A stretch of DNA of 64,000 nt from Ruegeria meonggei. Lineage in GTDB: Bacteria > Pseudomonadota > Alphaproteobacteria > Rhodobacterales > Rhodobacteraceae. Every line of letters begins with the position of its first letter. Position 1 is the first letter of the stretch. Position numbers and translations under genes: made by a program. A model generated the notes under the pieces. The model made no database searches, was not told the DNA's origin, and saw only the letters and a list, made by a program, of their open reading frames with translations. This document shows positions 17,354 to 37,986 of this stretch, one piece after another. The stretch spans positions 62,001 to 126,000 of the forward strand of contig NZ_FWFP01000001.1 in NCBI RefSeq assembly GCF_900172215.1, written 5' to 3'.

Positions 17354-17672
17354 CTATTTGTTCTCTCTTTGTTCTATTTGTGAGGTATAAAGCATCAAAC
17401 CCGCGCCGACAAGAGGGCAGACACACTCGCGCTGATTCCAGTAATTTCAGAGACTTGTGCACGGTTTAAATCACGCCCAAACGGACCTTGGTGTGAACGA
17501 AACGCAGGATGATCTTGCAAAGAATTCTATCGAGAGACGCGAAAATCTGGCCTATAGGTCGGTCTCGAAACCGCCAAGGTCGCAATCGTCACAGTAAAAC
17601 TGCGACGTTTTGGCCAAAACGAGAAAAATGCCACCACGGGCCTCAGGTCCGCACAGCTCAGGGAAACGCCCC
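17354..17672. other. Intergenic region between radical SAM and corrinoid genes
   Basis: These 319 bases hold the SOS promoter of the radical SAM gene at the left end and the leader of the corrinoid gene at the right. A GGTATAAAGC stretch near 17382 could serve a promoter in either direction. CGCGCTGATT near 17430 faintly recalls a SAM-II riboswitch, but the rest of that fold is not seen. No coding region or tRNA is evident. Confidence 0.6.
17360..17374 (-). promoter_or_regulatory. Predicted LexA box upstream of the radical SAM gene
   Basis: The plus strand reads GTTC-TCTCTTT-GTTC, which on the minus strand is GAAC-N7-GAAC, an exact alphaproteobacterial LexA box. On the minus strand TTGATG, a 16-base spacer and TAGAAC form a promoter laid out like that of lexA in this window, with the box overlapping the -10 element. 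The radical SAM start codon is seven bases downstream of the box. Confidence 0.75.
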
Positions 17673-18371
17673 ATGTCTGAAGAAGAAGACATCGTCCTGT
17701 CCGAACTGAATGACGACGAACTTGTCGAACAGATGTTCGACGATCTTTATGACGGCCTGAAAGAAGAAATCGAAGAAGGTGTGAACATCCTGCTGGAACG
17801 CGGATGGACACCTTATGACATTCTGACCAAAGCATTGGTCGGTGGCATGACTATCGTGGGACATGATTTCCGCGACGGCATCCTGTTTGTACCCGAGGTT
17901 CTGCTGGCCGCCAACGCGATGAAGGGTGGCATGTTCATCCTCAAACCCTTGCTAGCCGAAACCGGCGCGCCCCGTGTGGGCAAGATGGTCATCGGCACCG
18001 TAAAGGGCGACATTCACGACATCGGCAAAAACCTTGTTTCGATGATGATGGAAGGCGCGGGTTTCGAAGTGGTTGACCTTGGCATCAACAACCCGGTCGA
18101 AAACTATCTAGAGGCGCTGGAAACCGAAAGCCCTGATATTCTGGGAATGTCGGCCCTTTTGACCACGACCATGCCATACATGAAAGTTGTCATCGATACG
18201 CTGACCGAGCAGGGTCTGCGCGAAGACTACATTGTTCTTGTCGGAGGCGCGCCGCTCAACGAAGAGTTCGGCAAGGCCATCGGTGCCGACGCCTATTGCC
18301 GCGACGCAGCCGTTGCTGTGGAAACCGCCAAGGATTTCATGTCGCGCAAGCACAACCAACTGGCCGGCTGA
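17673..18371 (+). CDS. Corrinoid (cobalamin-binding) methyltransferase protein
   Basis: The product is a stand-alone B12-binding protein of 232 residues: a helical cap domain (about 10-95) followed by a Rossmann-like domain. The His-on motif GDIHDIGKNL (Asp113-x-His115-x-x-Gly118) ligates cobalt, and GMSALLTTTM and LVGGAPLNEEF line the nucleotide loop. Such proteins carry the methyl group in B12-dependent methyl transfer. ATG 17673 follows CAGGGA. The acidic N-terminus (SEEEDIVLSELNDDE) is ordinary for the group. The neighbour is a DUF1638 gene. In roseobacters this pair has been linked to a split methionine synthase; that role is inferred here. Confidence 0.88.
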   Translation: MSEEEDIVLSELNDDELVEQMFDDLYDGLKEEIEEGVNILLERGWTPYDILTKALVGGMTIVGHDFRDGILFVPEVLLAANAMKGGMFILKPLLAETGAPRVGKMVIGTVKGDIHDIGKNLVSMMMEGAGFEVVDLGINNPVENYLEALETESPDILGMSALLTTTMPYMKVVIDTLTEQGLREDYIVLVGGAPLNEEFGKAIGADAYCRDAAVAVETAKDFMSRKHNQLAG

Positions 18372-18393
18372 TCGGACCCGAAAGACTGTTTGA

Positions 18394-18434
18394 GGGCCGT
18401 CCGGTTATGCGGGCGGCCCGATTTGTTTCTTTGG
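18394..18434 (+). terminator. Terminator or attenuator between corrinoid and DUF1638 genes
   Basis: A 10-bp stem with one G-T wobble (18394-18403 with 18410-18419) around GTTATG is followed by a T-rich tail (GATTTGTTTCTTT). It should lower read-through into the DUF1638 gene 55 bases on. Confidence 0.75.
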
Positions 18435-18488
18435 GCCAGAACGGTCAACCGTTCAAATTCCGTCGTACAAATTCCGAGGAGCACCCCA

Positions 18489-19154
18489 ATGCAGCAGGAT
18501 GAATTGCCAGACGATGCCAGCCTGACAAACAAAGGGTACCAGTCGACGGAACGGGGCCGCATCTTGCTGTTGGCCTGCGGCGCGCTGGCACGCGAAATTC
18601 TGGATTTGAAACGCCGCAATGGCTGGGATCACATGGAGCTGACCTGCCTGCCTGCAATCCTGCATATCCATCCCGACAAAATCACCCAGGCCGTGCAGGA
18701 CGCGGTTGCGAAACACCAGGATGACTATGACCAGATCTTTGTCGTCTACGCCGATTGCGGCACAGGTGGCCTGCTGCAAACCGCCTGCGACGAGCTGGGC
18801 GTCGAGATGATCAAGGGCCCTCATTGTTATTCTTTTTTTGAGGGAAATCAGGTCTTTGAAGACCGCGGCGAAGATGAAATCACCTCTTTTTACCTGACCG
18901 ATTTTCTGGCCCGTCAGTTCGATGCGTTTGTGTGGAAACCACTTGGTCTAGATCGTCACCCCGAGCTGCGGGATATGTATTTCGGCAATTACACTAAGGT
19001 GGTCTATCAGGCGCAGACAGACGACCCGAATCTGACGGCCCGCGCCCGTGAGTGTGCCGAGCGCATGGGGCTGGAATTCGAGCGCCGTTTCACCGGCTTT
19101 GGTGATCTTGAAACGACGCTGATGGATTGGGCCAACCGGGCACCGCCCGTTTAA
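18489..19154 (+). CDS. DUF1638 domain protein, probable methionine synthase accessory
   Basis: The start is ATG 18489, eight bases after GAGGAG. The 221-residue product opens the domain with RILLLACGALAREIL and continues with YADCGTGG, the central GPHCYSFFEG segment and FYLTDFLARQFD. These conserved Cys/His-containing stretches are typical of DUF1638. No biochemical function is established. The family is common beside corrinoid methyltransferase genes. From memory, genetic fitness work in Phaeobacter tied such a gene to methionine synthesis. It directly follows the corrinoid gene, with a terminator-like hairpin between them. Confidence 0.8.
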   Translation: MQQDELPDDASLTNKGYQSTERGRILLLACGALAREILDLKRRNGWDHMELTCLPAILHIHPDKITQAVQDAVAKHQDDYDQIFVVYADCGTGGLLQTACDELGVEMIKGPHCYSFFEGNQVFEDRGEDEITSFYLTDFLARQFDAFVWKPLGLDRHPELRDMYFGNYTKVVYQAQTDDPNLTARARECAERMGLEFERRFTGFGDLETTLMDWANRAPPV

Positions 19155-23265: not shown

Positions 23266-23342
23266 GGGCCTGTAGCTCAATTGGTTAGAGCAGAGCGCTC
23301 ATAACGCTTTGGTTGGGGGTTCGAGTCCCTCCGGGCCTACCA
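23266..23342 (+). tRNA. tRNA with CAT anticodon, probably tRNA-Ile2 (lysidine type)
   Basis: The 77-base cloverleaf is complete, including the encoded CCA. The acceptor is GGGCCTG with CGGGCCT. The anticodon stem GAGCG/CGCTT closes the loop CTCATAA, giving CAT. The T-arm GGGGG-TTCGAGT-CCCTC is also present. The acceptor has C4-G69 and C5-G68, and the stretch after the anticodon arm (TTTGGTT) resembles E. coli tRNA-Ile2. These are TilS recognition traits, so an AUA-reading tRNA is more likely than elongator Met. Confidence 0.9.
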
Positions 23343-23467: not shown

Positions 23468-24484
23468 ATGGTCAACAAACCCGACACTGTTACCCATCTT
23501 GCAATCATCGTAGCGCCCAGTTTCAATATGGCGGCCACGATGGGTTTCATCGATCCGTTTCGCGCGGCCAATTATCTGGACGGAAAATCATATTTCAGCT
23601 GGACGTTTATGTCCGAGGTCGGTGGTTTCTGTGTCTCTAGTAACGGTGCTGGAATCAACACCGTGGCACTGGCCGAACTTGAACCAACCAGACCTGACAT
23701 CGCGGTGGTGTCGACCAGTTGGACACCCGAACGGCACATGACCGAAGGGGTGGGCAACGCCTTGCGGCAATGGGCCCGCGCTGGCGCAACGCTGGGCGCT
23801 TTGGACACTGGCGCGTTTGTTCTGGCGCAAGCCGGGCTGCTGACCGGTCGGCACGCAACCGTGCATTACGAGCATATCGACGCATTTCAAGAGCTGTACC
23901 CTGATGTGGAGGTGATCGAAAACCTCTACGCGTTGGACGGGAATCGCATCACCTGTTGTGGTGGCGGGGCGTCGGTGGATTTCGCGCTGCAGATCCTGCA
24001 GGGCATCCACGGCAGCGCGCTGGCAAATGCGGCCGCGCGCTATATCTTTCACGACCGGCTGCGCGGTCCTGCCGCCATGCAACACCCCGAGGGCAGTGAG
24101 CCGTTGGGAGCTGTCGTGCCGGCCACCCTTAAAACGGCCATCCAGGTGATGGAGTTGCATCTGGAAGACCCCCTGCCTATCCCCGATATCTGCAAACAGG
24201 CGGGCGTATCGCATCGCCAGCTTGACCGGCTGTTTGCGACATTCATCAAGAAGACACCTGCGCTTTACTATCGGGACATTCGATTGGATCGGGCCCGCGG
24301 GCTGGTCACCCAGACCGAGCTGCCCATAGCACAAGTCGCGGTAGCATCAGGGTTTGCCAGTCAGGTCCATTTCAGCCGCTCCTACAAGGAAAGATTCGGC
24401 CTTACACCCAGCCGGGACCGGATCGAAGGCCGGGTTCCCTTTGAATACCGGGCGTGGCCCATGCACCGCAAACCAAAAGCATGA
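23468..24484 (+). CDS. GlxA family AraC-type transcriptional regulator (betaine/carnitine type)
   Basis: The 338-residue protein joins an N-terminal DJ-1/PfpI-like sensor domain (about 10-200) to a C-terminal AraC double helix-turn-helix (about 225-325, ICKQAGVSHRQLDRLF and VAVASGFASQVHFSRSYKERFG). The segment LDTGAFVLAQAGLL has Asp-Thr-Gly where other GlxA proteins have Cys-Thr-Gly. That variant is shared by the GbdR/CdhR/ArgR group that senses glycine betaine, carnitine or related compounds. It stands just upstream of a Rieske oxygenase operon and is its likely activator. The effector is inferred, not shown. Confidence 0.85.
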   Translation: MVNKPDTVTHLAIIVAPSFNMAATMGFIDPFRAANYLDGKSYFSWTFMSEVGGFCVSSNGAGINTVALAELEPTRPDIAVVSTSWTPERHMTEGVGNALRQWARAGATLGALDTGAFVLAQAGLLTGRHATVHYEHIDAFQELYPDVEVIENLYALDGNRITCCGGGASVDFALQILQGIHGSALANAAARYIFHDRLRGPAAMQHPEGSEPLGAVVPATLKTAIQVMELHLEDPLPIPDICKQAGVSHRQLDRLFATFIKKTPALYYRDIRLDRARGLVTQTELPIAQVAVASGFASQVHFSRSYKERFGLTPSRDRIEGRVPFEYRAWPMHRKPKA

Positions 24485-24592: not shown

Positions 24593-25732
24593 ATGAGCGC
24601 GCTGCCGTCCAAAGAACAATTCGACCGGATTTCCGACGGGTTCAGCACCGACCCGTTCAACACACACTCGTTAAAAGCCGAGGCCTATGTCGATCCCGCA
24701 TGGCATCAGGTTGATCTGAACGAAATCCTGGCTAAGACCTGGCAATGGGTGTGCCACGTGGAAAAGCTGCGGTCGCCCGGGTCTTATGTAACGGTCGACA
24801 TCGCCGGCAGTCCGATCGCCGTGGTGCGCGACCGCGAAGGCAGATTGCGCGCGTTCTATAACGTCTGCAAACACCGTGCCCATCAGCTGCTGACTGGTGC
24901 CGGCGAAACAACCCGCATCATGTGCCCCTATCACGCCTGGGTCTACAAGCTGGACGGCCAGTTGGTACGAGCCCCCGAAACGGAAAACCTGGACAACTTC
25001 AACACCAAGGAAATCTGCCTCGACCAGGTTCAGGTCGAAGAATTCGCGGGGTTCATTTACGTCAATCTCGATTCCAAGGCACAGCCTTTGCACGCGGTGT
25101 CCGGCAACCTGAAGGCCGAGATCCAACACTGGGCCCCGGATATCGAAAACCTGACTTTCGGTCACCGCCTTACCTATGACATCAAGTCAAACTGGAAGAA
25201 CGTCGTCGACAATTTTCTGGAGTGCTACCACTGCCCGACCGCACATAAGGATTTCTGCGATCTGGTCGACATGGACACCTACAAAGTGACCACATACGGC
25301 ATCTACTCCAGCCACATGGCCGAGGCGGGCAATGGCGCAAACACTGCTTACGACGTCTCGAACGCCTCGGTGCGCACCCATGCGGTGTGGTGGCTTTGGC
25401 CGACGACCTGTCTGATGCGCTATCCGGGCCGGTCTTCGATGATCGTGCTGAACGTGATCCCCATCGGTCCGGACCGGACGTTGGAGACCTATGATTTCTA
25501 TCTTGAAACTCCCGAGCCTGACGCCGCAGAACTGGAAGCAATCCGCTATCTGGACGAGATACTGCAGCGCGAGGATATCGACATTGTCGAAAGCGTTCAG
25601 CGCGGCATGAGCACGCCCGCCTTTACCCAGGGGCGGATTGTGCACGACCCCAACGGCTCGGGCAAATCGGAACACGCAGTGCATCATTTCCACGGGCTGG
25701 TGCTGGACGCCTATGCAAAGGCCGCGCCTTGA
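24593..25732 (+). CDS. Rieske [2Fe-2S] oxygenase, alpha subunit (carnitine/glycine betaine monooxygenase family)
   Basis: ATG 24593 follows GGAG at seven bases; 379 residues. The Rieske cluster motif is CKHRAHQ with a second CPYHAW (C-x-H...C-x-x-H, about 87-111). The mononuclear iron site is in DNFLECYHCPTAHKDF, with a bridging Glu-Cys-Tyr-His. The end, VESVQRGM...QGRIVHD...SEHAVHHFHGLV, closely resembles the CntA/GbcA/YeaW group, which oxidises the N-substituents of carnitine, glycine betaine or similar amines. The gene for its ferredoxin reductase partner is not nearby. Its stop overlaps the TTG start of the sulfatase gene. Confidence 0.88.
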   Translation: MSALPSKEQFDRISDGFSTDPFNTHSLKAEAYVDPAWHQVDLNEILAKTWQWVCHVEKLRSPGSYVTVDIAGSPIAVVRDREGRLRAFYNVCKHRAHQLLTGAGETTRIMCPYHAWVYKLDGQLVRAPETENLDNFNTKEICLDQVQVEEFAGFIYVNLDSKAQPLHAVSGNLKAEIQHWAPDIENLTFGHRLTYDIKSNWKNVVDNFLECYHCPTAHKDFCDLVDMDTYKVTTYGIYSSHMAEAGNGANTAYDVSNASVRTHAVWWLWPTTCLMRYPGRSSMIVLNVIPIGPDRTLETYDFYLETPEPDAAELEAIRYLDEILQREDIDIVESVQRGMSTPAFTQGRIVHDPNGSGKSEHAVHHFHGLVLDAYAKAAP

Positions 25733-27264
25733 ATCGGCCCAATATTGTTGTGGTTATGGCCGACCAATTGGCACCCCATTTTTGCGGGACATACGGCCAT
25801 CCAACCGTGAAGACACCCAATATAGATGCGCTGGCGGCGCGCGGAATGCGGTTTGATGCAGCCTATTGCAACTCACCCCTGTGCGCCCCGTCGCGCTTTG
25901 CATTCATGTCGGGGCAATTGATCAGTCGCATTGCCGCCTATGACAACGCCAGTGAGTTCCGAGCTTCGGTGCCGACCTTCGCGCATTACCTGAAAGCATT
26001 GGGGTATCGCACCTGTCTGTCGGGCAAGATGCACTTTGTCGGCCCTGATCAGAAACACGGCTTTCAGGACCGCGTGACCACCGACATCTACCCCGCCGAT
26101 TTCGCCTGGACCCCGGATTGGGAGGCCCCGGATGAGCGGATCGACAAGTGGTATCACAACATGCAAACGGTCAAGGAAAGCGGCGAGGCTGTCGCGACTT
26201 TTCAGACCGACTATGATGACGAGGTCGAATTTGCCGCCCGCCGCTGGCTGATCGACCGGGGCCGCGACCGGGCTGCGGGGGATGCCGCGCCGTTCTGTCT
26301 GGTGGCCAGCTTTATCCATCCGCATGATCCCTATGTGGCCAAGCCCGAATGGTGGAACCTCTACTCCGATGCGGACGTGCCGATGCCGGAATTCCCCCTG
26401 AGGCCCGAACAACAAGACCCGTTCTCGCGCCGGGTGATGGACGGGATTGAGGCCAGCTATGTTCCTTTGACCGAACAGGAAATCCGCCGTGCCCGCCGCG
26501 CATATCTGGCCAATGTCAGCTATTTCGACAGCAAGCTGGGTGCGATGGTCAAGGCGCTGGTGGAGATCGGAGAGCTGGACAACACACTCGTCATCCTTAC
26601 CGCCGATCATGGCGATATGCTGGGCGAGCGCGGGCTGTGGTACAAGATGAACTTTTTCGAACACTCTGCCCGTGTGCCCTTGATCATGGCTGGTCCGGGT
26701 GTGGTCTCGGGCACTGCCCCCAACGCCTGTTCCCTTGTCGATCTGCTGCCGACCTTCGTGGATGCAGCCGGAGGCACAGACGACCTGTTTGGAGAGCCCG
26801 TGGATGGCCGGTCACTGATGCCCCTGGCACGCGGAGAACTCGATCCGGTGGACGAAGCCATCGGTGAATACTGCGCCGAAATGACACCCTACCCCGTTTT
26901 CATGATCCGGCGTGGGTCGTTGAAATACATCCACTGCGACCCCGATCCGCCACAGCTGTATGACCTGTCGGATGATCCGCTGGAAAAGGTCAATCTCGCC
27001 CTCGACCCGGCCTATGCCGAGCAAGCCGCAGGGTTTGCGGCTGAGGTCGCACAAAGATGGGACAGTGAAACCCTGCGCGCCGATGTCATCGCAACTCAGA
27101 AATCCCGGCGCGCTTTACATGCCGCGATGGAGGCCGGGGCTGGCGAGCCCTGGGACTATACACCGCCCCGGGACGCCACGCAGGAATACGTGCGCAACCA
27201 CATGGACTGGACCGTCGCCGCGACCCGCTATCGCTATCCGCCGCTGAAGAAGGAAACCGAATGA
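25729..27264 (+). CDS. Choline-sulfatase-like enzyme (formylglycine sulfatase, BetC family)
   Basis: The 511-residue sulfatase starts at TTG 25729, which overlaps the Rieske stop (TTGA) and is needed to keep the first strand NRPNIVVVMADQ. Formylglycine motif: PLCAPSRFAFMSGQ. Metal and sulfate residues lie in SGKMHFVGPDQ, SFIHPHDPY and TADHGDMLGERGLWYKMNFFE. The C-terminal end (WDYTPPRDATQEYVRNH) matches the choline-sulfatase C-terminal motif. BetC hydrolyses choline-O-sulfate. Here the gene is coupled to a Rieske oxygenase instead of betBA, so the true substrate may be another sulfated quaternary amine. A formylglycine-generating enzyme is not in the window. Confidence 0.85.
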   Translation: MNRPNIVVVMADQLAPHFCGTYGHPTVKTPNIDALAARGMRFDAAYCNSPLCAPSRFAFMSGQLISRIAAYDNASEFRASVPTFAHYLKALGYRTCLSGKMHFVGPDQKHGFQDRVTTDIYPADFAWTPDWEAPDERIDKWYHNMQTVKESGEAVATFQTDYDDEVEFAARRWLIDRGRDRAAGDAAPFCLVASFIHPHDPYVAKPEWWNLYSDADVPMPEFPLRPEQQDPFSRRVMDGIEASYVPLTEQEIRRARRAYLANVSYFDSKLGAMVKALVEIGELDNTLVILTADHGDMLGERGLWYKMNFFEHSARVPLIMAGPGVVSGTAPNACSLVDLLPTFVDAAGGTDDLFGEPVDGRSLMPLARGELDPVDEAIGEYCAEMTPYPVFMIRRGSLKYIHCDPDPPQLYDLSDDPLEKVNLALDPAYAEQAAGFAAEVAQRWDSETLRADVIATQKSRRALHAAMEAGAGEPWDYTPPRDATQEYVRNHMDWTVAATRYRYPPLKKETE

Positions 27265-28055
27265 TGTTGCAAGGAAAAACCGCGCTGGTCACGGGTGGGC
27301 GCGGTGGGATCGGACGGGCAATCGTGGCCCGCTTTTTGCGCGAAGGCGCACGGGTTTATGCCGCTGATCTGACACCGCACGGATCTTTGGCGGCCCATGA
27401 CGACGACGGCAGTCACTTTGTCAAACTGGATGTCACCCAAGAGGTGGATGCCGTAGCAGCAATGGCGCAGGTCAACGCAGATGCTGGTCAGTTGGATATC
27501 CTGGTGAACGCCGCCGGGATCGAGATTGAGAAGACCATCGAAGAGACCTCGCTTGAGGAATGGAACCTTTCGTTTGCCGTAAATGTGACTGGCACGTTCC
27601 TGACCTCGAAACATGCATTGCCGCTGATGCGCAAGGCCGCACGTGCGGGAACCACCGCCTCGATCATCAACTTCGGCAGCTATGACGGGTTTATCGCCGA
27701 TCCCGGCCTTGCGGCCTATTGCGCCACCAAGGGTGCGGTGCATGCGTTGACGCGGGCAATGGCCTGCGACCATGGACCCGAAGGCATCCGCGTCAACGCG
27801 ATCTGTCCGGGCTATGTCGATACCCCGATGTTGCAGAGCTTTTTCACCGGTGAGGGGTCAGGTGCAGCCGGTAAATCCATCGATCAACTGCAGCAAGCTG
27901 TCCGCGATGTTCACCCGATGCGCACCTTTGGCACGCCCGAAGACATCGCCAATCTGGTCAACTGGCTGGCCTCGGATGAGGCACGCTATGCCAGCGGCCA
28001 GCTATGGGTTCTGGACGGAGGTCTGAGCGCGCAGGTTCAGCAGATGAAGCTATAA
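27261..28055 (+). CDS. Short-chain dehydrogenase/reductase (first of two)
   Basis: A 264-residue classical SDR. The NAD(P) loop is TGGRGGIG (about 10-17), DVTQE follows the first half, NAAGIE closes the cofactor site, and the active site is Ser (FGSYDG) with Tyr and Lys in YCATKGAVH. ICPGYVDTPML is the usual C-terminal loop. It starts in an ATGA overlap with the sulfatase gene (a second ATG follows at 27264). It probably oxidises the hydroxyl freed by, or present in, the operon's substrate; specificity is unknown. Confidence 0.88.
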   Translation: MMLQGKTALVTGGRGGIGRAIVARFLREGARVYAADLTPHGSLAAHDDDGSHFVKLDVTQEVDAVAAMAQVNADAGQLDILVNAAGIEIEKTIEETSLEEWNLSFAVNVTGTFLTSKHALPLMRKAARAGTTASIINFGSYDGFIADPGLAAYCATKGAVHALTRAMACDHGPEGIRVNAICPGYVDTPMLQSFFTGEGSGAAGKSIDQLQQAVRDVHPMRTFGTPEDIANLVNWLASDEARYASGQLWVLDGGLSAQVQQMKL

Positions 28056-28102
28056 GCAAACCTGCCATTATCACCTATGCGAATTGGATTGGAGGTTCAC
28101 TG

Positions 28103-28843
28103 ATGCGGCTGGCTGGAAAAAGAGCGTTGGTTACGGGTGGTCGCCAAGGGATCGGCCGCGCAATCGCCGAGTCCTTTGCGAATGAGGGTGCGACTGTCAC
28201 AATCTGCGGCCGCGGACCCAGGCCAGAGGACCTGCCCGCGCAATTTATCTGGTACACTCTGGACGTGACAAATGCGGACGCGGTCAATGAGCTGGCATCG
28301 ACCACAGACGGTACGGATATTTTGGTGAACAACGCCGGTGTACAGGTCGAAAAGACTGTCACCGAAAGCGTGGACGCGGATTGGGATGCGGTGATCGGCA
28401 CCAATTGCCGGGGGGTCTTCAACCTCTGCCGCGCCTTTATTCCGCGAATGCCCGGGGGCGGATCGATCATCAATATCGGGTCGATTTCGGGCACCGCCGC
28501 AGACCCGTCGATGGCGCTCTATAATGCGTCCAAAGCCTTTGTGCACGGGCTGACGCGATCAATCGCCGTTGATCACGGCCCCAAAATCCGTTGCAACGCG
28601 ATTTGTCCGGGCTGGATCGAAACAGGTATGCTGGACGCCGCGTTTGAACTTGCGGACAACCCCACTGCCGCACGGCGGGATGCCCTGAACCGCCACGCCA
28701 CGCGCCGGTTTGGCAAGCCCGAAGATATCGCCAGCATGGCAGTTTGGCTGGCCTCAGATGAGGCCGGTTTTGCAACCGGGCAGTTGTTCACTGTGGATGG
28801 TGGTATGACCGCGGCCTCGCCTCTCAATCCGGGACTGTTCTGA
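28103..28843 (+). CDS. Short-chain dehydrogenase/reductase (second of two)
   Basis: GGAGG (28091-28095) sets the start at ATG 28103, giving 246 residues. The cofactor loop is TGGRQGIG, the middle strand NNAGVQ, and the catalytic residues are Ser in GSISGTA and Tyr/Lys in YNASKAFVH. It resembles the preceding SDR in parts but differs clearly in length and in the loop after ICPGW, so it is a paralogue with its own substrate or step. It ends in a one-base overlap (TGATG) with the next dehydrogenase. Confidence 0.88.
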   Translation: MRLAGKRALVTGGRQGIGRAIAESFANEGATVTICGRGPRPEDLPAQFIWYTLDVTNADAVNELASTTDGTDILVNNAGVQVEKTVTESVDADWDAVIGTNCRGVFNLCRAFIPRMPGGGSIINIGSISGTAADPSMALYNASKAFVHGLTRSIAVDHGPKIRCNAICPGWIETGMLDAAFELADNPTAARRDALNRHATRRFGKPEDIASMAVWLASDEAGFATGQLFTVDGGMTAASPLNPGLF

Positions 28844-29769
28844 TGGAATTTCAGCACACAGCCTGCCTAGGCGGCGGCGTGATTGGGGCCAGCTGGGCGG
28901 CGCTGTTTCTGGCCTCGGGACGTTCGGTGGCGCTGTTTGATCCAGACCCGGAAGTGGAACGCAAAGTACGTAGCTACATCGACACCGCCTGGCCCGCGAT
29001 GACCGAGCTGGGGTTGACCCGCAATGGCGCACCTGACGCGATCACATTCCACACCAGCGCAGCCAGCGCGGTTGAAGGCGCTGCTTTTGTGCAGGAAAAC
29101 GTCCCCGAGCGGCTGCCCATCAAACACGCAACTTTCGCGCAAATCGAACCTGCCCTTGCACCGGATGCCATCGTCGCCAGTTCAGCCTCTGGCCTGACAC
29201 TCAGCCAGATGCAGCCCGGATGGACCGATCCGTCCCGCTTTGTACTTGGGCATCCCTTCAACCCTCCGCACTTGATCCCCCTGGTCGAGGTTCTGGGAAA
29301 TGAACAAACCGAAGATGGGGTGGTCGCAGCCGCGCAACGGTTCTACAAGGCCGTCGGTAAAACCACGATCCGTGTCCAAAAAGAAGTGCCCGGCCATGTC
29401 GCCAACCGCCTTCAGGCCGCGATCTGGCGCGAGGCGGTTAGCCTTATCATGTCCGGCGTTGCCTCGGTCGAGGATGTGGACAAGGCCGTATGGGCAGGTC
29501 CTGGCCTGCGCTGGGCGGCAATGGGACCGACCATGCTGTTCAACCTCGGTGCCGGAGAAGGCGGGTTGCAGGCGTTCTGCGATCACTTCACCGAGACATT
29601 CAATGGCTGGTGGGACGATCTGGGGCAGGTTCACCTGACCGACGAAGTCACGCAGACCCTGGTTCAAGGCGTTAAATCCGAAGCAGGCGGCATGTCCACT
29701 GCCGAGTTGGCGCAAACGCGCGACGCGCTGATTGTGGCGATGCAGAAATCGATGTCAGGCCTGCGCTAG
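28843..29769 (+). CDS. 3-hydroxyacyl dehydrogenase family enzyme, L-carnitine dehydrogenase-like
   Basis: The 308-residue enzyme has the NAD loop CLGGGVIGASWAALF (about 8-22) and SSASGLTLSQMQ. The His-containing LGHPFNPPHLIPLVEV motif follows, then GLRWAAMGPTML in the C-terminal domain. This is the layout of the single-domain 3-hydroxyacyl-CoA dehydrogenase relatives such as L-carnitine dehydrogenase and L-gulonate 3-dehydrogenase, which act on free 3-hydroxy acids. With a carnitine-type regulator and Rieske oxygenase in the same cluster, a carnitine-like or betaine substrate is favoured. It is the last gene of block A; the next gene is convergent. Confidence 0.83.
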   Translation: MEFQHTACLGGGVIGASWAALFLASGRSVALFDPDPEVERKVRSYIDTAWPAMTELGLTRNGAPDAITFHTSAASAVEGAAFVQENVPERLPIKHATFAQIEPALAPDAIVASSASGLTLSQMQPGWTDPSRFVLGHPFNPPHLIPLVEVLGNEQTEDGVVAAAQRFYKAVGKTTIRVQKEVPGHVANRLQAAIWREAVSLIMSGVASVEDVDKAVWAGPGLRWAAMGPTMLFNLGAGEGGLQAFCDHFTETFNGWWDDLGQVHLTDEVTQTLVQGVKSEAGGMSTAELAQTRDALIVAMQKSMSGLR

Positions 29770-29778: not shown

Positions 29779-30489
29779 TTAAAACTCGGGCGGCCTGAGC
29801 CCGGCCTGAAACCAGCTGACCAGAGAGACGATGGAATAGACCGGCAGGTCGGTCGCCTTTTGAATGTCGGCAGCATAGGGGCACATATTCGTGCACTCCA
29901 ACACCAGCGCGCCCAGTTCAGGGTGGTTTTGTTTCATCGCCAGCGCGGCCTCGACATTGTCGGCGCGAGCCTTTTCAATATCCAGCACCAGTTCGTTGCC
30001 CAGAATCGCCCGCGTGAATTCCTGTCCGCCTTCGGTCGATCCGATGGGCGTCCCATCTGGTACCAGAGCGCTGCGCAAATGCTCGGTGGTGAGGGTTGAG
30101 GCTGAGATCGTCAACACCCCGGCGCGTTTGCCTGTGGGCAACAGCCGATTCACCATCTCGACCTGCATCAGGGATGAGGTGACAACGGGCACCGGAACCG
30201 CCTCGGACAGTTCCTTTTGGAAGAGGGACAGAAACCCGCAATTTGTGGTGATACCGTCCACCCCGTCTTCGACCAGACCACGCGCTGCGTCCACAAAGGC
30301 ATCCAGCAAACCCTCGGCCCTGCGTCGCACGACCAGATCGGGCGAGGCGTTCCGCACGATGCGGTAATGCACCGGGAACGGCCATGTCAGCGCGTTGCCC
30401 ATGTCACCCGGAATACGGGGAAACCGGGCATCCAGCATCAGTATCCCAACCGACGCGCCGTATATCGATTTTCCACCAGTCGCGATCAT
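29779..30489 (-). CDS. Aspartate/glutamate racemase family protein
   Basis: The 236-residue protein belongs to the Asp/Glu/hydantoin racemase and maleate isomerase superfamily. The paired catalytic cysteines are in GITTNCGFLS and VLECTNMCPY. The N-terminus has GILMLDARFPRIPGDMGN, common in uncharacterised members of this group. Racemase, isomerase or decarboxylase activity are all possible. It starts three bases after the GntR-type gene, so the two form one operon under that regulator. Confidence 0.8.
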   Translation of the reverse strand: MIATGGKSIYGASVGILMLDARFPRIPGDMGNALTWPFPVHYRIVRNASPDLVVRRRAEGLLDAFVDAARGLVEDGVDGITTNCGFLSLFQKELSEAVPVPVVTSSLMQVEMVNRLLPTGKRAGVLTISASTLTTEHLRSALVPDGTPIGSTEGGQEFTRAILGNELVLDIEKARADNVEAALAMKQNHPELGALVLECTNMCPYAADIQKATDLPVYSIVSLVSWFQAGLRPPEF

Positions 30490-30492
30490 TCC

Positions 30493-31191
30493 TCAGGCCT
30501 TTTCAATGATGCGGGCCGAGATGTCTTCAGACCCTTCCATATAGATGTTCGAGATACCATGACGCACAGCGTCCTGGACCTGATCCATCCGTTTGGCAAT
30601 ATGTCGGCTCAGAACCTCTGCCGCGCTGTTCTCGTCGCGCTCCAGCAACGCTTGCATGACTCGTTTATGTTCGTCTTTCGACCGCTGCACCCGGTCCAGG
30701 CTCATGGAAATCCAACGGATGTACCGGATACGTTCGTTGATGCGGCACAGCGTTTCAAACAGTTCCGAGTTGCCCGACAGGCGGGCGATGCCCAGGTGGA
30801 ACGCTTCATCCCGATTCACCGCCTCTTCTACGGTAAGACCGGTGATATCAATTCCGGTGGCGTAAAGCTCATCCTGCATGGCCTGCAATTCGTCATCGGT
30901 TGCCGTGGCGCAAGCTGACCGCACAGCGGCAACTTCGATAATCTGGCGCAGCTCGAACAGGTCGAACACACTTTTGGCGTCCAAAGCGCGGCAGAAAAAC
31001 CCCTGCCCTGGGCGGAAATCAAACATCTTTTCGGCTACCAACCGGTTCAGCGCCTCGCGCAGCGGCGTGCGGCTGACGCCAAGCTCTTTCGACAGCGCAA
31101 CCTCGTTCAGGCGATCGCCGGGGCGTAGGCGAAACGAAACCGCCATCTCTTTGACGCGCTCATAAATGTCATCAACCCGTGGACCCGCCAT
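30493..31191 (-). CDS. GntR family regulator, FadR/FCD type
   Basis: ATG 31191 (MAGPRVDDIYERVKE) begins the winged-helix domain; the in-frame extension upstream crosses the operator and is rejected. The 232-residue protein has LRPGDRLNEVALSKELGVSRTPLREALNRL, the FCD-family helix-turn-helix, followed by an all-helical FCD ligand domain (about 80-215) with metal-ligand-type residues in NRDEAFHLGIARLSGN. These domains usually bind a carboxylic acid ligand. A TATACA-N4-TGTATA palindrome 54 bases upstream is its likely operator, shared with the divergent TPP enzyme gene. Confidence 0.88.
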   Translation of the reverse strand: MAGPRVDDIYERVKEMAVSFRLRPGDRLNEVALSKELGVSRTPLREALNRLVAEKMFDFRPGQGFFCRALDAKSVFDLFELRQIIEVAAVRSACATATDDELQAMQDELYATGIDITGLTVEEAVNRDEAFHLGIARLSGNSELFETLCRINERIRYIRWISMSLDRVQRSKDEHKRVMQALLERDENSAAEVLSRHIAKRMDQVQDAVRHGISNIYMEGSEDISARIIEKA

Positions 31192-31234
31192 AACACCGCC
31201 TTTTGTCTTTCCGCACAGCTGCCACAGGTGGGGC

Positions 31235-31262
31235 TTGAAATCAATATACAAAACTGTATACA
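31235..31262 (+). promoter_or_regulatory. Divergent promoter region with GntR-type palindromic operator
   Basis: The perfect inverted repeat TATACA-AAAC-TGTATA (31245-31260) lies between the GntR gene and the TPP enzyme gene. TTGAAA (31235-31240) and TATACA (31257-31262) form a plus-strand promoter with a 16-base spacer, overlapped by the palindrome, so binding should repress the TPP gene and probably the regulator itself. Confidence 0.68.
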
Positions 31263-31294
31263 GCTCTGAACACAATTTGAAAGCGAGGCAAAAG

Positions 31295-32989
31295 ATGTCG
31301 GGAACAAATTATCTGACCGGAGCCGAGGCGATGGTGCACATGCTGAACGCGCATGGTGTGAAACACATGTTTGGCCTGTGCGGGGATACGACACTGCCCT
31401 TTTATGACGCGTTGGCGCAGATGGATCATGGGATCGAACATATCCTGACCCGCGACGAACGGCATGCAGCCTATATGGCCGACGGCTATGCCCGTGTGAC
31501 CGGCAAGCCCGGCGTGTGCGAGGGCCCGTCTGGCGGCGGCGCGACATACATCCTGCCCGGTGTGATCGAGGCCAATGAAAGCTCGGTCCCGATCCTGGCC
31601 ATCACTTCTGATGTGGCGACCACCAGCCGGGGAAAATACCCGCTGACCGAGCTGGATCAGGAAGCTCTGTTCAGGCCGTTGTCCAAGTGGAACGCCTCAT
31701 TAGATGATGCAACCCGCCTGCCCGCCATGGTGCGGGCTGCCTTTCGGGCGATGACCACAGGCACCCCTGGCGCGACACATCTGGCCTTGCCGTTTGACAC
31801 ACAGAAAGCACAGGTGGACGAGGCCGAAATTTGGGCCGACGCAAGGCACCAAACCTATCCCGCAGAACGCGCGGCCCCGGATCAAGCCGCAATTGAAACT
31901 GCGGCCGACATTCTGGCCGGGGCGAGCTCAGCCGTGGCGATCTGCGGCGGAGGTCCGGTTCTGTCAGGCGCAACGGATGCGTTGCACAATTTGGCCGCGC
32001 TGCTGGATATGCCGGTGGCGACAACTGTGTCTGGTCAGGGATCGATTGCGGAAAGAGACGCACTGGCTTTGGGCGTCGTGGGATCGAATGGCGGGGTCCC
32101 GGCAACGCGCTCGGTTGTGGACGCGGCAGATGTTGTTCTGTTCATCGGATGCCGCGCCGGATCGGTTACCACCGAACGTTGGCGCAGTCCGACACGCGAC
32201 GTCACCGTGATCCATATCGACAGCGATCCGATGGTCATCGGCGCCAACTATCAAACCGAGGTGGCTATCTGCGCTGATGCGCGGCTGGCGCTTGAGGCGT
32301 TGGTGAACACACTCGGCGAACGGGGTGACCTGCCTGCCCAGGGCGGCGCGGCCAAGGCGAAAACCGCGTGGGACGCCAAACTGGCGGCCTATGCCCCACT
32401 GGCCGCCAGCCGTGAAGCGCCGATCCGGCCCGAGGCCGTCATGGCCTCTCTCATGGATATTCTGGACGACGACGCCATTGTGGTAGCTGATCCGGGCACC
32501 CCCTGCCCCTATTTCAGCGCGCACTACCGCTGGCAAAAGCCGGGACGGCATTTCATTACCAATCGGGCCCATGGCGCGCTTGGCTATGCGCTGGGTGCTG
32601 CGATGGGCGCACATGTCGGTCGCCCTTCGGTCAAGACATTGGCGGTGATGGGTGACGGATCTTTTGGCTTTGCCTGTGGCGAGTTTGAGACCATGGTTCG
32701 GCACAACATGCCGATCACGTCAATCGTGTTCTCGAACGCCGTGTTCGGCTGGATCAAGGCCGGTCAGGATGCCGGGTTCGGGCAGCGATATTACAATGTC
32801 GATTTCAATCGAACGGACCACGCGGCCGTCGCCTCGGCCTTTGGCGTCAAATCATGGACGGTCAAGGACCCTGACGATTTGCGCCGTGTCCTGAAAGAAG
32901 CCATCGAACATGATGGTCCCACCCTGGTGGACATCCACTCGCAACCCCTTCACGAAGCAGCCGCGCCTGTGTCCGAGTGGGTGGCGTAG
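31295..32989 (+). CDS. Thiamine diphosphate-dependent enzyme, acetolactate synthase-like
   Basis: ATG 31295 follows GAGG at eight bases; the protein has 564 residues. The three usual TPP domains are present. The N-terminal pyrimidine-binding domain carries the activating Glu in TRDERHAAYMADGYAR, and a central domain has VVLFIGCRAGS. The C-terminal diphosphate-binding motif is GDGSFGFACGEFETMVRHNMPITSIVFSN. The FAD-binding trait of true acetolactate synthase is not evident. Likely roles are decarboxylation or carboligation of a 2-oxo acid. It faces the GntR/racemase operon across a shared operator. Its end overlaps the convergent LysR gene by 40 bases. Confidence 0.85.
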   Translation: MSGTNYLTGAEAMVHMLNAHGVKHMFGLCGDTTLPFYDALAQMDHGIEHILTRDERHAAYMADGYARVTGKPGVCEGPSGGGATYILPGVIEANESSVPILAITSDVATTSRGKYPLTELDQEALFRPLSKWNASLDDATRLPAMVRAAFRAMTTGTPGATHLALPFDTQKAQVDEAEIWADARHQTYPAERAAPDQAAIETAADILAGASSAVAICGGGPVLSGATDALHNLAALLDMPVATTVSGQGSIAERDALALGVVGSNGGVPATRSVVDAADVVLFIGCRAGSVTTERWRSPTRDVTVIHIDSDPMVIGANYQTEVAICADARLALEALVNTLGERGDLPAQGGAAKAKTAWDAKLAAYAPLAASREAPIRPEAVMASLMDILDDDAIVVADPGTPCPYFSAHYRWQKPGRHFITNRAHGALGYALGAAMGAHVGRPSVKTLAVMGDGSFGFACGEFETMVRHNMPITSIVFSNAVFGWIKAGQDAGFGQRYYNVDFNRTDHAAVASAFGVKSWTVKDPDDLRRVLKEAIEHDGPTLVDIHSQPLHEAAAPVSEWVA

Positions 32990-33870
32990 GACGCGATTGA
33001 AGGTGTCAGCTGGGCCAGAAACTCTTGTGCGATTGCAGATAGTGGACGCCCCTTGGCGGTGATGATGGCCAGATCCAGCATAACCGCAGGCCGGAACGGG
33101 CGGGTTTGATAGCCGCCTTCCGCGTCAAACGTCACGGTAAATGGGTCGATCACTGCAACGCCCATGCCCTGTTTGACAAAGCTCAGCAAATTTTCGGACA
33201 GGTGCGTGTGAATCTTGGTCCGCCACGTGCGACCCTCCGCCTGAAATATATCGCGGGTTCGGCGATGGGTCTGATGTTCCGGGCCCATGACGATAAAGGG
33301 CTCATCCTCCAGCAATTCCGCGGTCAGGACATCGTATTGGGTTAAGGGGCTGCCTTCGGGAAATGTGGCCAGCGTTTCGAAATGGAATTCCTGATAGTTG
33401 AGCGTGTCGTGCAGGATCGGCATCTCAACAACCCCCACCTCGAACAGGCCCGAAATCACCCATTCCTGAATTTTTGACGAATATTGCGATTGAAAACTAA
33501 CCGACAGGTTGGGCCGGCTGGCAGCGAACCGGGCGATTTCCTGTGGCATAAAGCCAAAAGACAGCAGATGCGGGGCCGCCACCTGCAACTGACCGGGATG
33601 CTTGTTCTGCAAATCGGTCACCGCCTGTGCCACGTGGTCTAGCCCGCGAACAACAGTGTCTACTTCACGAAACAGCAGCTCGGCTTCGGGGGTTGGTAAC
33701 AGCCTGCCTTTGTTACGCTCAAACAGCGGCAGGCGGGCTTCGCGCTCCAATTGGGCCAGAAGGTTGCTGATCCCCGGCTGCGAAATCCCCAGAACCGAGG
33801 CCGCACCCGTCACCGTTCCAGTCTCCATGATCGCATGAAACGCCTGCAATTGCCGAAACCGAAGAGACAT
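32950..33870 (-). CDS. LysR family transcriptional regulator
   Basis: The 306-residue protein has the LysR helix-turn-helix at the N-terminus (FRQLQAFHAIMETGTVTGAASVLGISQPGISNLLAQLE) and a periplasmic-binding-protein-like effector domain (about 90-295). It lies divergently from the enolase-superfamily gene with a 99-base gap holding an inverted repeat, the usual arrangement for a LysR activator and its target operon. It shares 40 bases of coding sequence at its end with the TPP gene on the other strand. Confidence 0.92.
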   Translation of the reverse strand: MSLRFRQLQAFHAIMETGTVTGAASVLGISQPGISNLLAQLEREARLPLFERNKGRLLPTPEAELLFREVDTVVRGLDHVAQAVTDLQNKHPGQLQVAAPHLLSFGFMPQEIARFAASRPNLSVSFQSQYSSKIQEWVISGLFEVGVVEMPILHDTLNYQEFHFETLATFPEGSPLTQYDVLTAELLEDEPFIVMGPEHQTHRRTRDIFQAEGRTWRTKIHTHLSENLLSFVKQGMGVAVIDPFTVTFDAEGGYQTRPFRPAVMLDLAIITAKGRPLSAIAQEFLAQLTPSIASYATHSDTGAAAS

Positions 33871-33879
33871 TGGCCTAAC

Positions 33880-33929
33880 TCATCATTTTTTCTGATGATC
33901 TTGCCATAACATAGTATTTGAAATGATAC
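33880..33929 (+). promoter_or_regulatory. LysR-type operator and promoter of the block C operon
   Basis: The inverted repeat TCATCA-N7-TGATGA (33880-33898) fits a LysR recognition site. TTGCCA (33901-33906) and TGATAC (33924-33929) with a 17-base spacer form a plus-strand promoter just downstream of it, as expected for LysR activation of the enolase-superfamily gene. Confidence 0.65.
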
Positions 33930-33969
33930 ACTTGCCACGGCACGGTTCTTTTACCAGACCGGAGTAACG

Positions 33970-35103
33970 ATGACCGACCTGCACCAGACCATCACGGGCT
34001 TTGACCTGTGGCATCTTGAACTGCCCGTCACCTCGCGGCGCGATCATGGAATCGGATCAGTTGAAGGAAGCTGCGAGGTCGTCATCCTGCGCCTGACATC
34101 CGAGGACGGAACTCAAGGGTTTGGCGAGGCCTCGCCCTGGTCGGTTTTCACCGGCACGCCCGAGGCGACATATGCGGCGCTGGATCGGTATCTGCGACCG
34201 CTGGTTGTCGGATCACGCGTTGCAGATCGTGCCGCCATCATGGCTAAAACAGCCTTTGCGGTTGCCCATTGCACCGAGGCCAAGGCAGCCCTGGAAACCG
34301 CGCTGCTGGACCTTGCCGGTCGCGTCAGCGCCGTGCCCGTTTGGGCGCTGTTAGGTGGCAAGTGCCGCGACACGATCCCGCTCAGTTGCTCAATTGCCAA
34401 CCCGGACTTCGCGCAGGATGTGGCGCTGTTGGAGCAATTGCAGGTAGACGGCGTGCGGATCGTAAAGCTGAAAACCGGGTTCCGAGATCATGCCTTTGAT
34501 ATTCTGCGGCTAGAGCATTTAGCCCAGAATTGCCCCGAATTCTCGGTCCGCGTGGACTATAATCAGGGGCTGACCGTTGAGGACGCGTCAGAGCAGGTGC
34601 GCGATGTCGCGCAGTTCAAACCGGATTTCATCGAACAACCGGTGCGCGCGCATCATTACGGAATGATGGCCACCCTGCGCGGTCAGATCGATGTGCCCCT
34701 TCTGGCCGATGAAAGCGTGTTTGGCCCCGAAGAGATGGAACGCGCCGCGCGCGAGGGGATTTGTGACGGTGTCTCGGTCAAGATCATGAAATCCGGCGGG
34801 CTGAGCCGCGGGCAGACCGTCGCGCGGATTGCGGCGGCGCATGGGCTCAGCGCTTATGGCGGGGACATGTTCGAGGCTGGCCTGGCCCATCTGGCCGGAA
34901 CCCATATGATTGCGGCGACCCCCGAAATCACACTCGGGTGCGAGTTCTATCAGGCTTCGTACTTCCTGAAGGAGGACATTCTGGAAGAGCCGTTTCTTGT
35001 GCAGAATGGCAAGGTCATCGTACCGGACAGCCCCGGTTTGGGAGGACGCCCTGATCTGGACAAGCTGGACCACTACGCTTTAGCCAAGGCGGTGGCGGCA
35101 TGA
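33970..35103 (+). CDS. Enolase superfamily enzyme, muconate-lactonising subgroup
   Basis: A 377-residue barrel enzyme. Catalytic and metal residues can be placed: Lys166-x-Lys168 (VKLKTG), Asp196 and Asn198 (VDYNQG), Glu222 (FIEQP), Asp247 (LADES) and Lys271 on the sixth strand ([10 protein letters not shown]). This Lys/Lys pattern is the muconate-lactonising subgroup, which includes cycloisomerases, dipeptide epimerases, proline-betaine epimerases and hydroxyproline dehydratases. The sequence is not close to what I remember of HpbD. An ATGA overlap couples it to a DadA-like oxidase gene, so epimerisation or dehydration of an amino- or imino-acid derivative is the best guess. Confidence 0.85.
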
Positions 35104-36350
35104 GCGAGAAAAAAACCATCGCCATCATCGGCGCCGGGATTGTCGGCGTGTCCGCAGCTGTATGGCTGCAACGCGACGGGCACGAAGTGATCCTGATCGA
35201 CAAGGCCGGGCCCGGCGAAGGGACCTCACACGGCAATGGCGGGGTTTTGGCTTCGTGTTCCGTTGTGCCGGTCACAGTGCCGGGGCTGCTGGGCAAGGCG
35301 CCTCGAATGCTGTTCGACCGCTCGCAGCCCTTGTTCATGAAATGGGGGTACATCCCCAAGTTACTGCCGTGGCTGCTGCGCTATTTGAAACATGCCAACA
35401 CTGATGACGTAAACCATATTGCCGCCGCCCTGACCCCTATCGTGGGTGACAGCCTGAACGACCATCAAGCGCTGGCCCAAGGAACCGGGGCTGAGAAATG
35501 GATCACCCCGTCGGACTATTTGTTCCTATATGAAAACAGGCAACATTTCGAAGGCGACGCCTTTGGCTGGGATATCCGGCGCAAAAACGGGTTCACTTGG
35601 GACGAACTGGAAGGCCAAGCCTTTCACGACTATGACCCGGTGTTCAGCAAGGACATCAGCTTTGCCGCACGCCTGGGCGATCACGGGCATATCCGCGATC
35701 CGGGGCGTTATGTCAAAGATCTGGCTGCGCATGTCGAAGCCAACGGCGGCCGGATCATCCAGGCTGCGGTCGATGATGTGGCGCGCGAAAACGGCAAGGT
35801 GACCGGCGTGCGCGCTGGCGGCCACACCATTGCCTGCGACACCGCGATCGTCACCGCAGGCGTCTGGTCCGGCCCATTGGCCCGCAAACTGGGTGTTGCT
35901 GTTCCACTGGAAAGCGAACGCGGGTATCATCTTGAATTGGTGGAACCTTCCGCAATGCCCAAAAGCCCGGTTATGGTGGCCTCAGGCAAATTTGTTGCCA
36001 CCCCGATGGAGGGCCGCATCCGGCTCGCGGGGATTGTCGAATTCGGTGGGCTGGACGCGCCGCCATCGCGGGCTCCGTTCGAGTTGTTGCGCAAGAATGC
36101 CCAGTCTGTGTTACCGGGGATCACGTGGAAGGACGAAGTGGAATGGATGGGGCACCGGCCCGCCCCGGTGGATTCGATCCCGGTGATCGGAGAAGTCCCC
36201 GGAGCGGAAGGTGCCTACATGGGCTTTGGGCACCACCATATCGGCCTGACGGGAGGGCCAAAAACTGGACGCCTTTTGGCGCAGATGATCGCAGGAAGAA
36301 CACCCAATACGGATATGACCGTCTATGCGCCGTCACGATACAAAACATAA
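35100..36350 (+). CDS. FAD-dependent oxidoreductase, D-amino acid dehydrogenase-like (DadA family)
   Basis: The 416-residue protein starts with the FAD loop [28 protein letters not shown] (about 7-34) and [13 protein letters not shown], the DadA-family flavin contact. It ends with the second FAD segment [24 protein letters not shown]. It probably oxidises a D-amino or N-methylated amino acid and passes electrons to the respiratory chain. It starts inside the enolase-superfamily stop (ATGA). A hairpin and 50 bases separate it from the TRAP binding-protein gene. Confidence 0.87.
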
Positions 36351-36354
36351 CAAA

Positions 36355-36372
36355 GCCGGTGCTCAAACCGGC
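36355..36372 (+). terminator. Short hairpin between the DadA-like gene and dctP
   Basis: GCCGGT-GCTCAA-ACCGGC forms a 6-bp stem just after the oxidase stop codon. With a weak following tract it may act as a partial terminator or as a processing barrier ahead of the strongly translated binding-protein gene. Confidence 0.45.
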
Positions 36373-36400
36373 CCATCTTATTAAACCAGGGAGACTAAAG

Positions 36401-37378: not shown

Positions 37379-37390
37379 TTTTGCTGACAG

Positions 37391-37982: not shown

Positions 37983-37986
37983 GCGC

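Follow-up and report, generated by a model that had tools for sequence, protein, structure and literature searches.

An operon pairing a Rieske oxygenase with a choline-sulfatase-like enzyme

The window analysed here is a stretch of 64,000 nucleotides from Ruegeria meonggei (contig NZ_FWFP01000001.1, positions 62,001 to 126,000), and its positions 24593-29769 hold an operon in which a Rieske oxygenase, a choline-sulfatase-like enzyme, two short-chain dehydrogenases (SDR1 and SDR2) and a 3-hydroxyacid dehydrogenase (HAD3) are encoded behind a regulator, all on the plus strand. The regulator (23468-24484) is a GbdR-like protein of the AraC type with a DJ-1/PfpI domain, which in relatives is annotated as 'GlxA family' and lies beside the operon in most loci. 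It is followed by the Rieske oxygenase gene (24593-25732), whose product was assigned to group Va and found to be CntA-like by profile search, structure-relative search and alignment, and by the sulfatase gene (25729-27264), which begins at a TTG codon and encodes a TIGR03417 protein of a distinct subfamily here called SULF2. The remaining genes are SDR1 (27261-28055), SDR2 (28103-28843; its family scan was run with one additional codon ahead of the ATG) and HAD3 (28843-29769), the last resembling the N-terminal half of carnitine 3-dehydrogenase. All six genes are intact open frames of the expected families, and comparison with three relatives indicated purifying selection on each of them (dN/dS 0.02-0.08, obtained with a simple method and with dS often around 1 or above 1).

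A first-pass annotation of this DNA had described a packed operon with a Rieske oxygenase, a choline-sulfatase-like enzyme, two SDRs and a carnitine-dehydrogenase-like enzyme and with three overlapping junctions, one of them through a TTG start, and all of these were found in place. The Rieske and sulfatase genes overlap by TTGA (25729-25732), the sulfatase and SDR1 genes by ATGA (27261-27264) and the SDR2 and HAD3 genes by one base (28843). The SDR1-SDR2 junction, the only non-overlapping one of the four, is a 47-base gap that opens with what remains of a lost BKACE (DUF849) gene, a scar made up of its first codons (28052-28080, plus strand) with ATA in place of the ATG start. We infer from the gene overlaps that the operon genes are co-transcribed; a promoter and terminator scan was unhelpful (4 promoter-like signals against 2.5 expected and 10 terminator-like signals against 6.0 expected). 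The regulator had been called GbdR/CdhR-type, and GbdR is its best NCBIfam hit, but the 227.6 bits obtained are under the cut-off of 480.

Conservation of the gene set

The 80 loci obtained in a scan with the Rieske protein were the best 80 of 551, and the genera among them include Ruegeria, Roseovarius, Leisingera, Shimia, Paracoccus, Mesorhizobium, Shinella, Labrys and Ensifer. SDR1, SDR2 and HAD3 were all found near the Rieske gene in 72 of the 80; six of the remaining eight loci end on short contig pieces, and the other two (L066 and L088) are without a core gene on a long piece at the thresholds used. Conserved gene order in other roseobacters was in this way confirmed there and beyond, and the arrangement is not a mere coincidence. 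Operons were counted where both SDR genes lay on the fetched piece, which gave 81 including that of the window (the rows of L081 and L142 being identical); the table is restricted to plus-strand hits, and L138 and L141 are therefore outside the 81. HAD3 was present in 79 of these operons, the sulfatase in 55, BKACE in 59 and an aldehyde dehydrogenase (ALDH) in 53 (missing from 28), with BKACE and ALDH together in 51 and neither in 20. By these counts the conserved core is Rieske-SDR1-SDR2-HAD3 and the sulfatase is optional. The minimum numbers of changes on a quick tree of the Rieske proteins were 12 for the sulfatase, 15 for BKACE and 18 for ALDH, and gains and losses are not told apart since the root was not inferred.

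The sulfatase was not found in the operon versions examined from Mesorhizobium, Shinella, Ensifer, Labrys, Paracoccus and Pseudomonas. The Shinella and Mesorhizobium operons, which are among these, have a betaine-type ABC transporter before and a flavin adenine dinucleotide (FAD) oxidoreductase after. Annotated plasmid records carry the same gene set, and the operon on a Pseudomonas plasmid typed as conjugative has in addition a VanB-type reductase, a thioesterase and, as its final gene, a choline-binding protein (TIGR03414, 440 against a cut-off of 379). The Pseudomonas thioesterase matches the carnitine 3-dehydrogenase model at positions 345-492 only (112 bits, below the whole-protein cut-off), and this part of the model is the half absent from HAD3. 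At L085, SULF2 stands 5' of the Rieske gene instead of 3'. The copy in L137 (genome G250) is decaying, its Rieske gene being interrupted by an in-frame stop and its BKACE being a fragment. A record titled Oceanobacillus sp., a Firmicute (L037), holds an operon with 64-84% identity to the window proteins and is probably a mislabelled or contaminated assembly.

Loss of the BKACE and aldehyde dehydrogenase genes from the window

In most relatives the BKACE and ALDH genes are located between SDR1 and SDR2, and both are intact in L012. The operon ALDH is of the aminobutyraldehyde group; it passes PRK13473 (663.7 against 615) and fails TIGR03374 (591.2 against 909). Window positions 28031-28076 align without gaps to the end of SDR1 and the start of BKACE in L012, the SDR1 stop being kept and the BKACE start codon reading ATA in the window and ATG in relatives. 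The alignment scores after SDR1 were 32 (L013), 29 (L012), 25 (L011) and 19-23 (three others), compared with a maximum of 23 in 500 shuffles, which were made against L012 only. The rest of the BKACE gene and the ALDH gene, together about 2.3 kb in L012, are gone from the window. Five related Ruegeria loci without both genes (L018, L020, L015, L017 and L021) have junctions of differing length and sequence, and in some of them remnants can apparently be made out by eye. The two genes therefore seem to have been lost more than once. With the operon BKACE and ALDH lost from the window, enzymes encoded elsewhere would take those steps or the route would be shortened. The window genome has four further BKACE genes, one of which (L093) is 57% identical to the operon type, and none of its 24 ALDH matches exceeds 37% identity.

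A sulfatase subfamily distinct from BetC

The window sulfatase passes the choline-sulfatase model TIGR03417 with 687 bits against a cut-off of 433.45, has the C-terminal choline-sulfatase domain as BetC does, and carries the C-x-P-S-R motif with no evident signal peptide (read by eye). The FGE family comprises the makers of formylglycine, and one FGE-type gene is present in the window genome. The genome also has its own BetC, 46% identical to the window sulfatase, at a betI-betC-betA locus elsewhere. Given this BetC beside betI and betA, the window sulfatase is a second, different enzyme; its context is Rieske, SDR and HAD3 genes with no betI, betA or betB. For comparison, betA and/or betI accompanied BetC in 14 of 20 sampled loci, with a weak betI hit in one and neither gene in five (L165, L155, L157, L158 and L159).

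The residues of 84 SULF2 proteins (57 encoded in Rieske operons and 27 elsewhere) were compared with those of 21 BetC proteins, of which 19 come from fetched loci, one is the copy of the window genome and one is the outlier L165. Hits with coverage below 85%, identity below 40% or stops were excluded, as were L004 (the window copy) and both L006 and L097, which duplicate the BetC of the window genome, itself entered once. In the numbering of the S. meliloti choline sulfatase (SmCS), all 84 SULF2 proteins have C54, W129, H201, K309 and Glu386, and the formylglycine cysteine and catalytic residues (C54, H201 and K309) are also found in 21 of 21 BetC. According to the available text of PMC5870055, Glu386 of SmCS recognises the quaternary ammonium and matters for choline-O-sulfate, not for aryl sulfate, and Leu499 and Leu502 are substrate-tunnel residues that come from the tail of the neighbouring protomer. 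At the Leu499 position SULF2 has Trp in 83 of 84 proteins and Tyr in one, whereas BetC has Leu in 20 of 21 and a gap in one; at the Leu502 position Ala (74) and Val (10) in SULF2 correspond to Leu (17), Val (3) and a gap (1) in BetC. Because Val at Leu502 occurs in BetC also, only Leu499 is clear-cut of the two tunnel positions. Around Glu386 BetC usually reads A-x-E-A-S (A or G in the fourth place) and nearly all operon SULF2 read C-x-E-M-T, the others being more varied, so that the residues next to Glu386 are bulkier in SULF2. One branch of a quick tree splits SULF2 from BetC (SH-aLRT 94), with L165 as a long branch on the BetC side.

Judged from these residues, the SULF2 substrate tunnel is changed relative to BetC. 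In the favoured reading the substrate is probably not mainly choline-O-sulfate. A canonical BetC was rejected as the whole explanation, given the other BetC in the bet operon of this genome and the separate branch of SULF2. The SULF2 gene is named 'betC: choline-sulfatase' in all five plasmid records examined, and counts of betC in roseobacters may therefore mix two enzymes.

Distribution and neighbourhoods of SULF2

A survey of the family covered 394 genomes from 393 genera, with identity thresholds placed at visible gaps (67/47% for the Rieske protein, 57/50% for SULF2 and 60/49% for a transporter binding protein described below). A Rieske orthologue (at least 67% identity) was found in 32 genomes, including the window genome and G250 with its in-frame stop, and 43 genomes were SULF2-positive (above the 57/50% gap), one copy, in G243, having an in-frame stop. 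SULF2 was present in 26/32 Rieske-positive and 17/362 Rieske-negative genomes (Fisher's test, p = 9e-24), and after removal of the 16 adjacent cases unlinked SULF2 was still found in 10/16 Rieske-positive genomes against 17/362 (p = 3.6e-9), both values being uncorrected for shared ancestry. A possible link between absence of the operon BKACE and presence of a carnitine-type BKACE elsewhere was discarded as not informative, given that the latter was found, anywhere in the genome, in 11/11 Rieske-positive genomes that lack an operon-type BKACE and 19/21 that possess one; the overall figure of 30/32 compares with a base rate of 110/149 (p = 0.018, overlapping sets).

All 27 loci with SULF2 outside a Rieske operon were scanned with 22 reference proteins and 30 neighbours in 16 of these loci with Pfam, the neighbours in L112, L119, L123 and L125 being covered by the reference-protein scan only. 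Deducing the substrate from these neighbours alone was given up, the genes being mostly unrelated. In L134, SULF2 lies directly after an operon for an acyl-CoA dehydrogenase, an ADP-forming-type ligase, a crotonobetainyl-CoA-hydratase-like protein (331.6, below the cut-off of 500) and a carnitine-type BKACE sharing 82% identity with its counterpart in the window genome. An operon of the same type (genes 63-88% identical; BKACE 85%) was found in L117, where three genes for a betaine-type ABC transporter separate it from SULF2. SULF2 heads a SULF2-SDR1-ALDH-SDR2-HAD3 array in L131 (genome G072), where the Rieske gene lies elsewhere (L166) without SDRs or HAD3, and in L125 it is followed by a relative of SDR2 (59%).

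Betaine- or trimethylamine N-oxide (TMAO)-type ABC transporters adjoin some operons, and five of the 27 non-operon SULF2 genes lie within about 6 kb of an orthologue of the transporter found with the rhizobial operons. The binding protein of this transporter (at least 60% identity) is encoded by a single copy in 12 of 28 genomes (those of the 27 loci and that of the window), with five of the 12 genes near SULF2 and two near a Rieske gene. In the window genome the transporter is on another contig with no further operon genes beside it.

The Rieske oxygenase

The best solved full-length relative of the Rieske protein is carnitine monooxygenase (235 bits). Alignment by eye placed Phe at CntA Tyr203 and showed that the E-C-x-x-C motif reads ECYHC. 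An aromatic residue at 203 together with the E-C-x-x-C pair characterises group Va, the quaternary-amine class (PMC7948474, PMC10952381), in which choline monooxygenases are included (PMC7948474), as far as the available parts of these papers describe it. Among seven positions of the CntA pocket, mapped by eye, two are kept (Tyr225 and Tyr295), Tyr203 is Phe and four differ, Phe258, Asn270, Tyr315 and Phe319 of CntA being Thr, Met, Leu and Leu in the window protein. Given the group Va pair and the altered pocket, the enzyme probably acts on a quaternary amine, though not demonstrably on carnitine. The earlier proposal of an N-methylated amine as its substrate is supported by the aromatic residue and the Cys pair, whereas the C-N split is putative, with four of the seven pocket positions differing from CntA. 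A demethylase of the GbcA type was rejected, since the match to the glycine betaine monooxygenase model reached 156.7 bits against a cut-off of 670 and position 203 is aromatic instead of Asn. No CntB-type reductase was found beside the Rieske gene in the operon, and the four PF00970 hits of the genome are on other contigs; a search of the 32 Rieske-positive genomes for a dedicated reductase gave matches in 24, at only 34-43% identity, and was uninformative.

Surroundings of the operon

A tRNA-Met gene (23266-23342) lies immediately 5' of the operon. The purM/purN context was found only in L010 and L011 among the 80 loci, some of which have short flanks, indicating that the chromosomal site of the operon varies. 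Downstream, a block at 29779-40232 with genes for an Asp/Glu racemase-like protein, a GntR regulator, a thiamine pyrophosphate (TPP) enzyme, a LysR regulator, a muconate-cycloisomerase-like protein, an FAD oxidoreductase and a TRAP transporter sits between HAD3 and a histidine-kinase/metallo-lactamase pair. Given that L009, L010 and L011 have homologues of the pair (85-89% and 81-84%) directly after HAD3, with the racemase, TPP and cycloisomerase-like genes not found, the block is probably a lineage-specific insertion. At 17610-19154 a B12-binding (corrinoid-type) protein gene adjoins a DUF1638 gene, a pair of the kind found near corrinoid methyltransferases.

Proposed pathway and alternatives

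From the observed gene content, co-conservation, residues, selection and scar, a substrate, an order of reactions and each chemical step may be proposed. We give an even chance to the view that the operon serves the catabolism of a carnitine-family quaternary amine and that an added, divergent choline-sulfatase paralogue admits its O-sulfate ester. The substrate is most likely a hydroxylated N-trimethyl compound with a four-carbon backbone. Because the sulfatase is optional, the pathway would serve the compound without sulfate, and desulfation would be an extra way in. Uptake would occur through the betaine/TMAO-type ABC transporter that is linked in some relatives and unlinked in the window genome, and sulfate would then be released by the cytoplasmic formylglycine sulfatase. 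The freed alcohol or aldehyde would be oxidised by the SDRs, in relatives with the help of the aminobutyraldehyde-type dehydrogenase. The Rieske protein with a separate reductase could hydroxylate the betaine either beside the nitrogen, resulting in a C-N split as with CntA, or at C3, the place filled by BBOX in an Arctic SAR11 island (PMC12421898). A beta-keto acid would be made by HAD3 and converted by BKACE with acetyl-CoA to a betainyl-type CoA and acetoacetate, after which a thioesterase would free the betaine.

Read in this way, the full gene set resembles a carnitine-type route that includes C-C cleavage. The first-pass annotation had proposed a split at the C-N bond, and this part is incomplete, because the BKACE and aminobutyraldehyde-type dehydrogenase of most relatives and one betainyl-CoA-type thioesterase point to C-C cleavage in the manner of carnitine and not to C-N splitting alone. 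Its idea that a sulfated N-methylated compound is desulfated fared better, with Glu386 conserved throughout SULF2 and the sulfatase distinct from the genome's BetC, but has to be qualified by the optional occurrence of the sulfatase. With its ammonium site retained, its tunnel changed and its gene paired with those for quaternary amines, the sulfatase has a better candidate substrate in an O-sulfated compound of the carnitine family than in choline-O-sulfate. A more specific version is doubtful. In it, the SULF2 proteins would desulfate O-sulfated carnitine or some other carnitine-family betaine that carries a sulfate, a metabolite not known from nature to our knowledge, and marine bacteria would feed on it through this operon as a second route of the carnitine type, equipped with a Rieske oxygenase and its separate BKACE.

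Several results weigh against a carnitine-family substrate. A search of open-access full text gave no match for carnitine sulfate. HAD3 stays below the cut-offs of both curated models, carnitine 3-dehydrogenase (254.8 against 592) and L-carnitine dehydrogenase (251.2 against 414). The BKACE of the relatives' operons passes a model for 3,5-dioxohexanoate (499 against 430) and shares no more than 31% identity with the carnitine BKACE of the window genome. That genome already has a canonical carnitine operon (L094), with a BKACE, a fused dehydrogenase-thioesterase (796.6 against 592) and an AraC-type regulator that is 32% identical to the one studied here, so that a second carnitine route would be redundant. 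BKACE and ALDH may moreover be peripheral, with both absent in 20 of the 81 operons and the core retained. The co-occurrence tests for SULF2 and the Rieske protein ignore shared ancestry, and most of the 27 non-operon SULF2 genes had no informative neighbour among the proteins scanned. Finally, the best solved relative of the transporter's binding protein is 4xz6, titled a glycine betaine/proline-binding protein and not a carnitine-binding one, which is presumably the TMAO-binding TmoX.

Among the alternatives, it is unlikely that the sulfatase is simply one more enzyme for choline-O-sulfate, with the operon as a side route in which the choline released is oxidised by the Rieske protein (as choline monooxygenase), the SDRs and ALDH. 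The sulfatase does pass the choline-sulfatase model (687/433) and keeps Glu386, group Va includes choline monooxygenases in the account available from PMC7948474, and a choline-binding-protein gene (440/379) closes the Pseudomonas operon. However, the genome already has betI-betC-betA, the SULF2 tunnel is remodelled, neither a 3-hydroxyacid dehydrogenase nor BKACE is needed for choline, and one lone SULF2 gene is directly after, and another near, carnitine-type genes.

It is quite improbable that the substrate is an omega-trimethylamino alcohol or diol esterified with sulfate, for instance of the 4-trimethylaminobutanol type, which an SDR would convert to the aldehyde and ALDH to gamma-butyrobetaine, with the Rieske hydroxylase leading to carnitine, HAD3 to dehydrocarnitine, and BKACE and thioesterase to glycine betaine. 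We know of no omega-trimethylamino alcohol sulfate, which counts against this proposal, and the ALDH required for it is missing in the 28 operons noted above. It would, on the other hand, give a role to almost every enzyme of the full operon, the aminobutyraldehyde-type dehydrogenase included (with the PRK13473 and TIGR03374 scores given above), and it parallels the enzyme set of the SAR11 island as available from PMC12421898. The larger residues beside Glu386 in SULF2 are not suggestive of a longer chain there, and C3 hydroxylation by a group Va Rieske protein is not described in the available parts of the literature consulted.

The model for the BKACE subgroup bears the name of a non-amine acid, lambda-crystallin, from a sugar-acid dehydrogenase family, is among the solved relatives of HAD3, and marine algae commonly contain sulfonium analogues. 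A substrate without a quaternary ammonium, whether a sulfonium compound (gonyol, for example) or an aryl or sugar sulfate, is nevertheless very improbable in view of the invariant Glu386 (important in SmCS for choline-O-sulfate but not for aryl sulfate in the available text of PMC5870055), the group Va signature of the Rieske protein, the GbdR-like regulator, and the betaine- and choline-type binding proteins and transporters that adjoin some operons.

The claim that no described pathway has this gene set was upheld within open-access full text, where no description of the operon was found among the matches listed, subscription papers and most preprints being outside the search. The enzyme families are known, and the combination, the SULF2 subfamily and its distribution appear undescribed. 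If a sulfated carnitine-family compound is the substrate, marine bacteria would cycle sulfated quaternary amines other than choline-O-sulfate, and organic sulfur, nitrogen and possibly trimethylamine release would become linked. The Rieske orthologue occurs, besides the 32 of 394 sampled family genomes, in rhizobia and on a conjugative-type plasmid of Pseudomonas.

Comparison with known systems

The Arctic SAR11 island contains a choline dehydrogenase, ALDH, carnitine dehydrogenase, BBOX, BKACE, thioesterase and betaine ABC transporter (PMC12421898). In the available part of this description the enzyme types are similar to those of the operon and the betaine ABC transporter is shared, whereas the BBOX dioxygenase stands where the operon has the Rieske protein and no sulfatase is mentioned. 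With BetC (TIGR03417; SmCS, PDB 6fny), SULF2 has in common the family, the catalytic residues, Glu386 and the C-terminal choline-sulfatase domain, and it differs in forming its own branch, in Trp at Leu499 and Ala or Val at Leu502, and in the non-bet context. The Rieske protein resembles the carnitine monooxygenase CntA/YeaW (6y8j) in its group Va membership, the aromatic residue at 203 and the E-C-x-x-C motif; unlike CntA/YeaW it has four other pocket residues, Phe for Tyr203 and no adjoining CntB-type reductase. L-carnitine degradation by the CdhR operon (CdhA, BKACE and betainyl-CoA thioesterase) is comparable in its AraC-type regulator, its 3-hydroxyacid dehydrogenase, the BKACE present in most relatives and the CdhA-type thioesterase found in the Pseudomonas version. 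In contrast to that route, HAD3 is unfused and below cut-off, the BKACE is of another subgroup, and the Rieske protein, the SDRs, ALDH and the sulfatase are additional, and the window genome contains both a carnitine operon of the CdhR type and the operon studied here.

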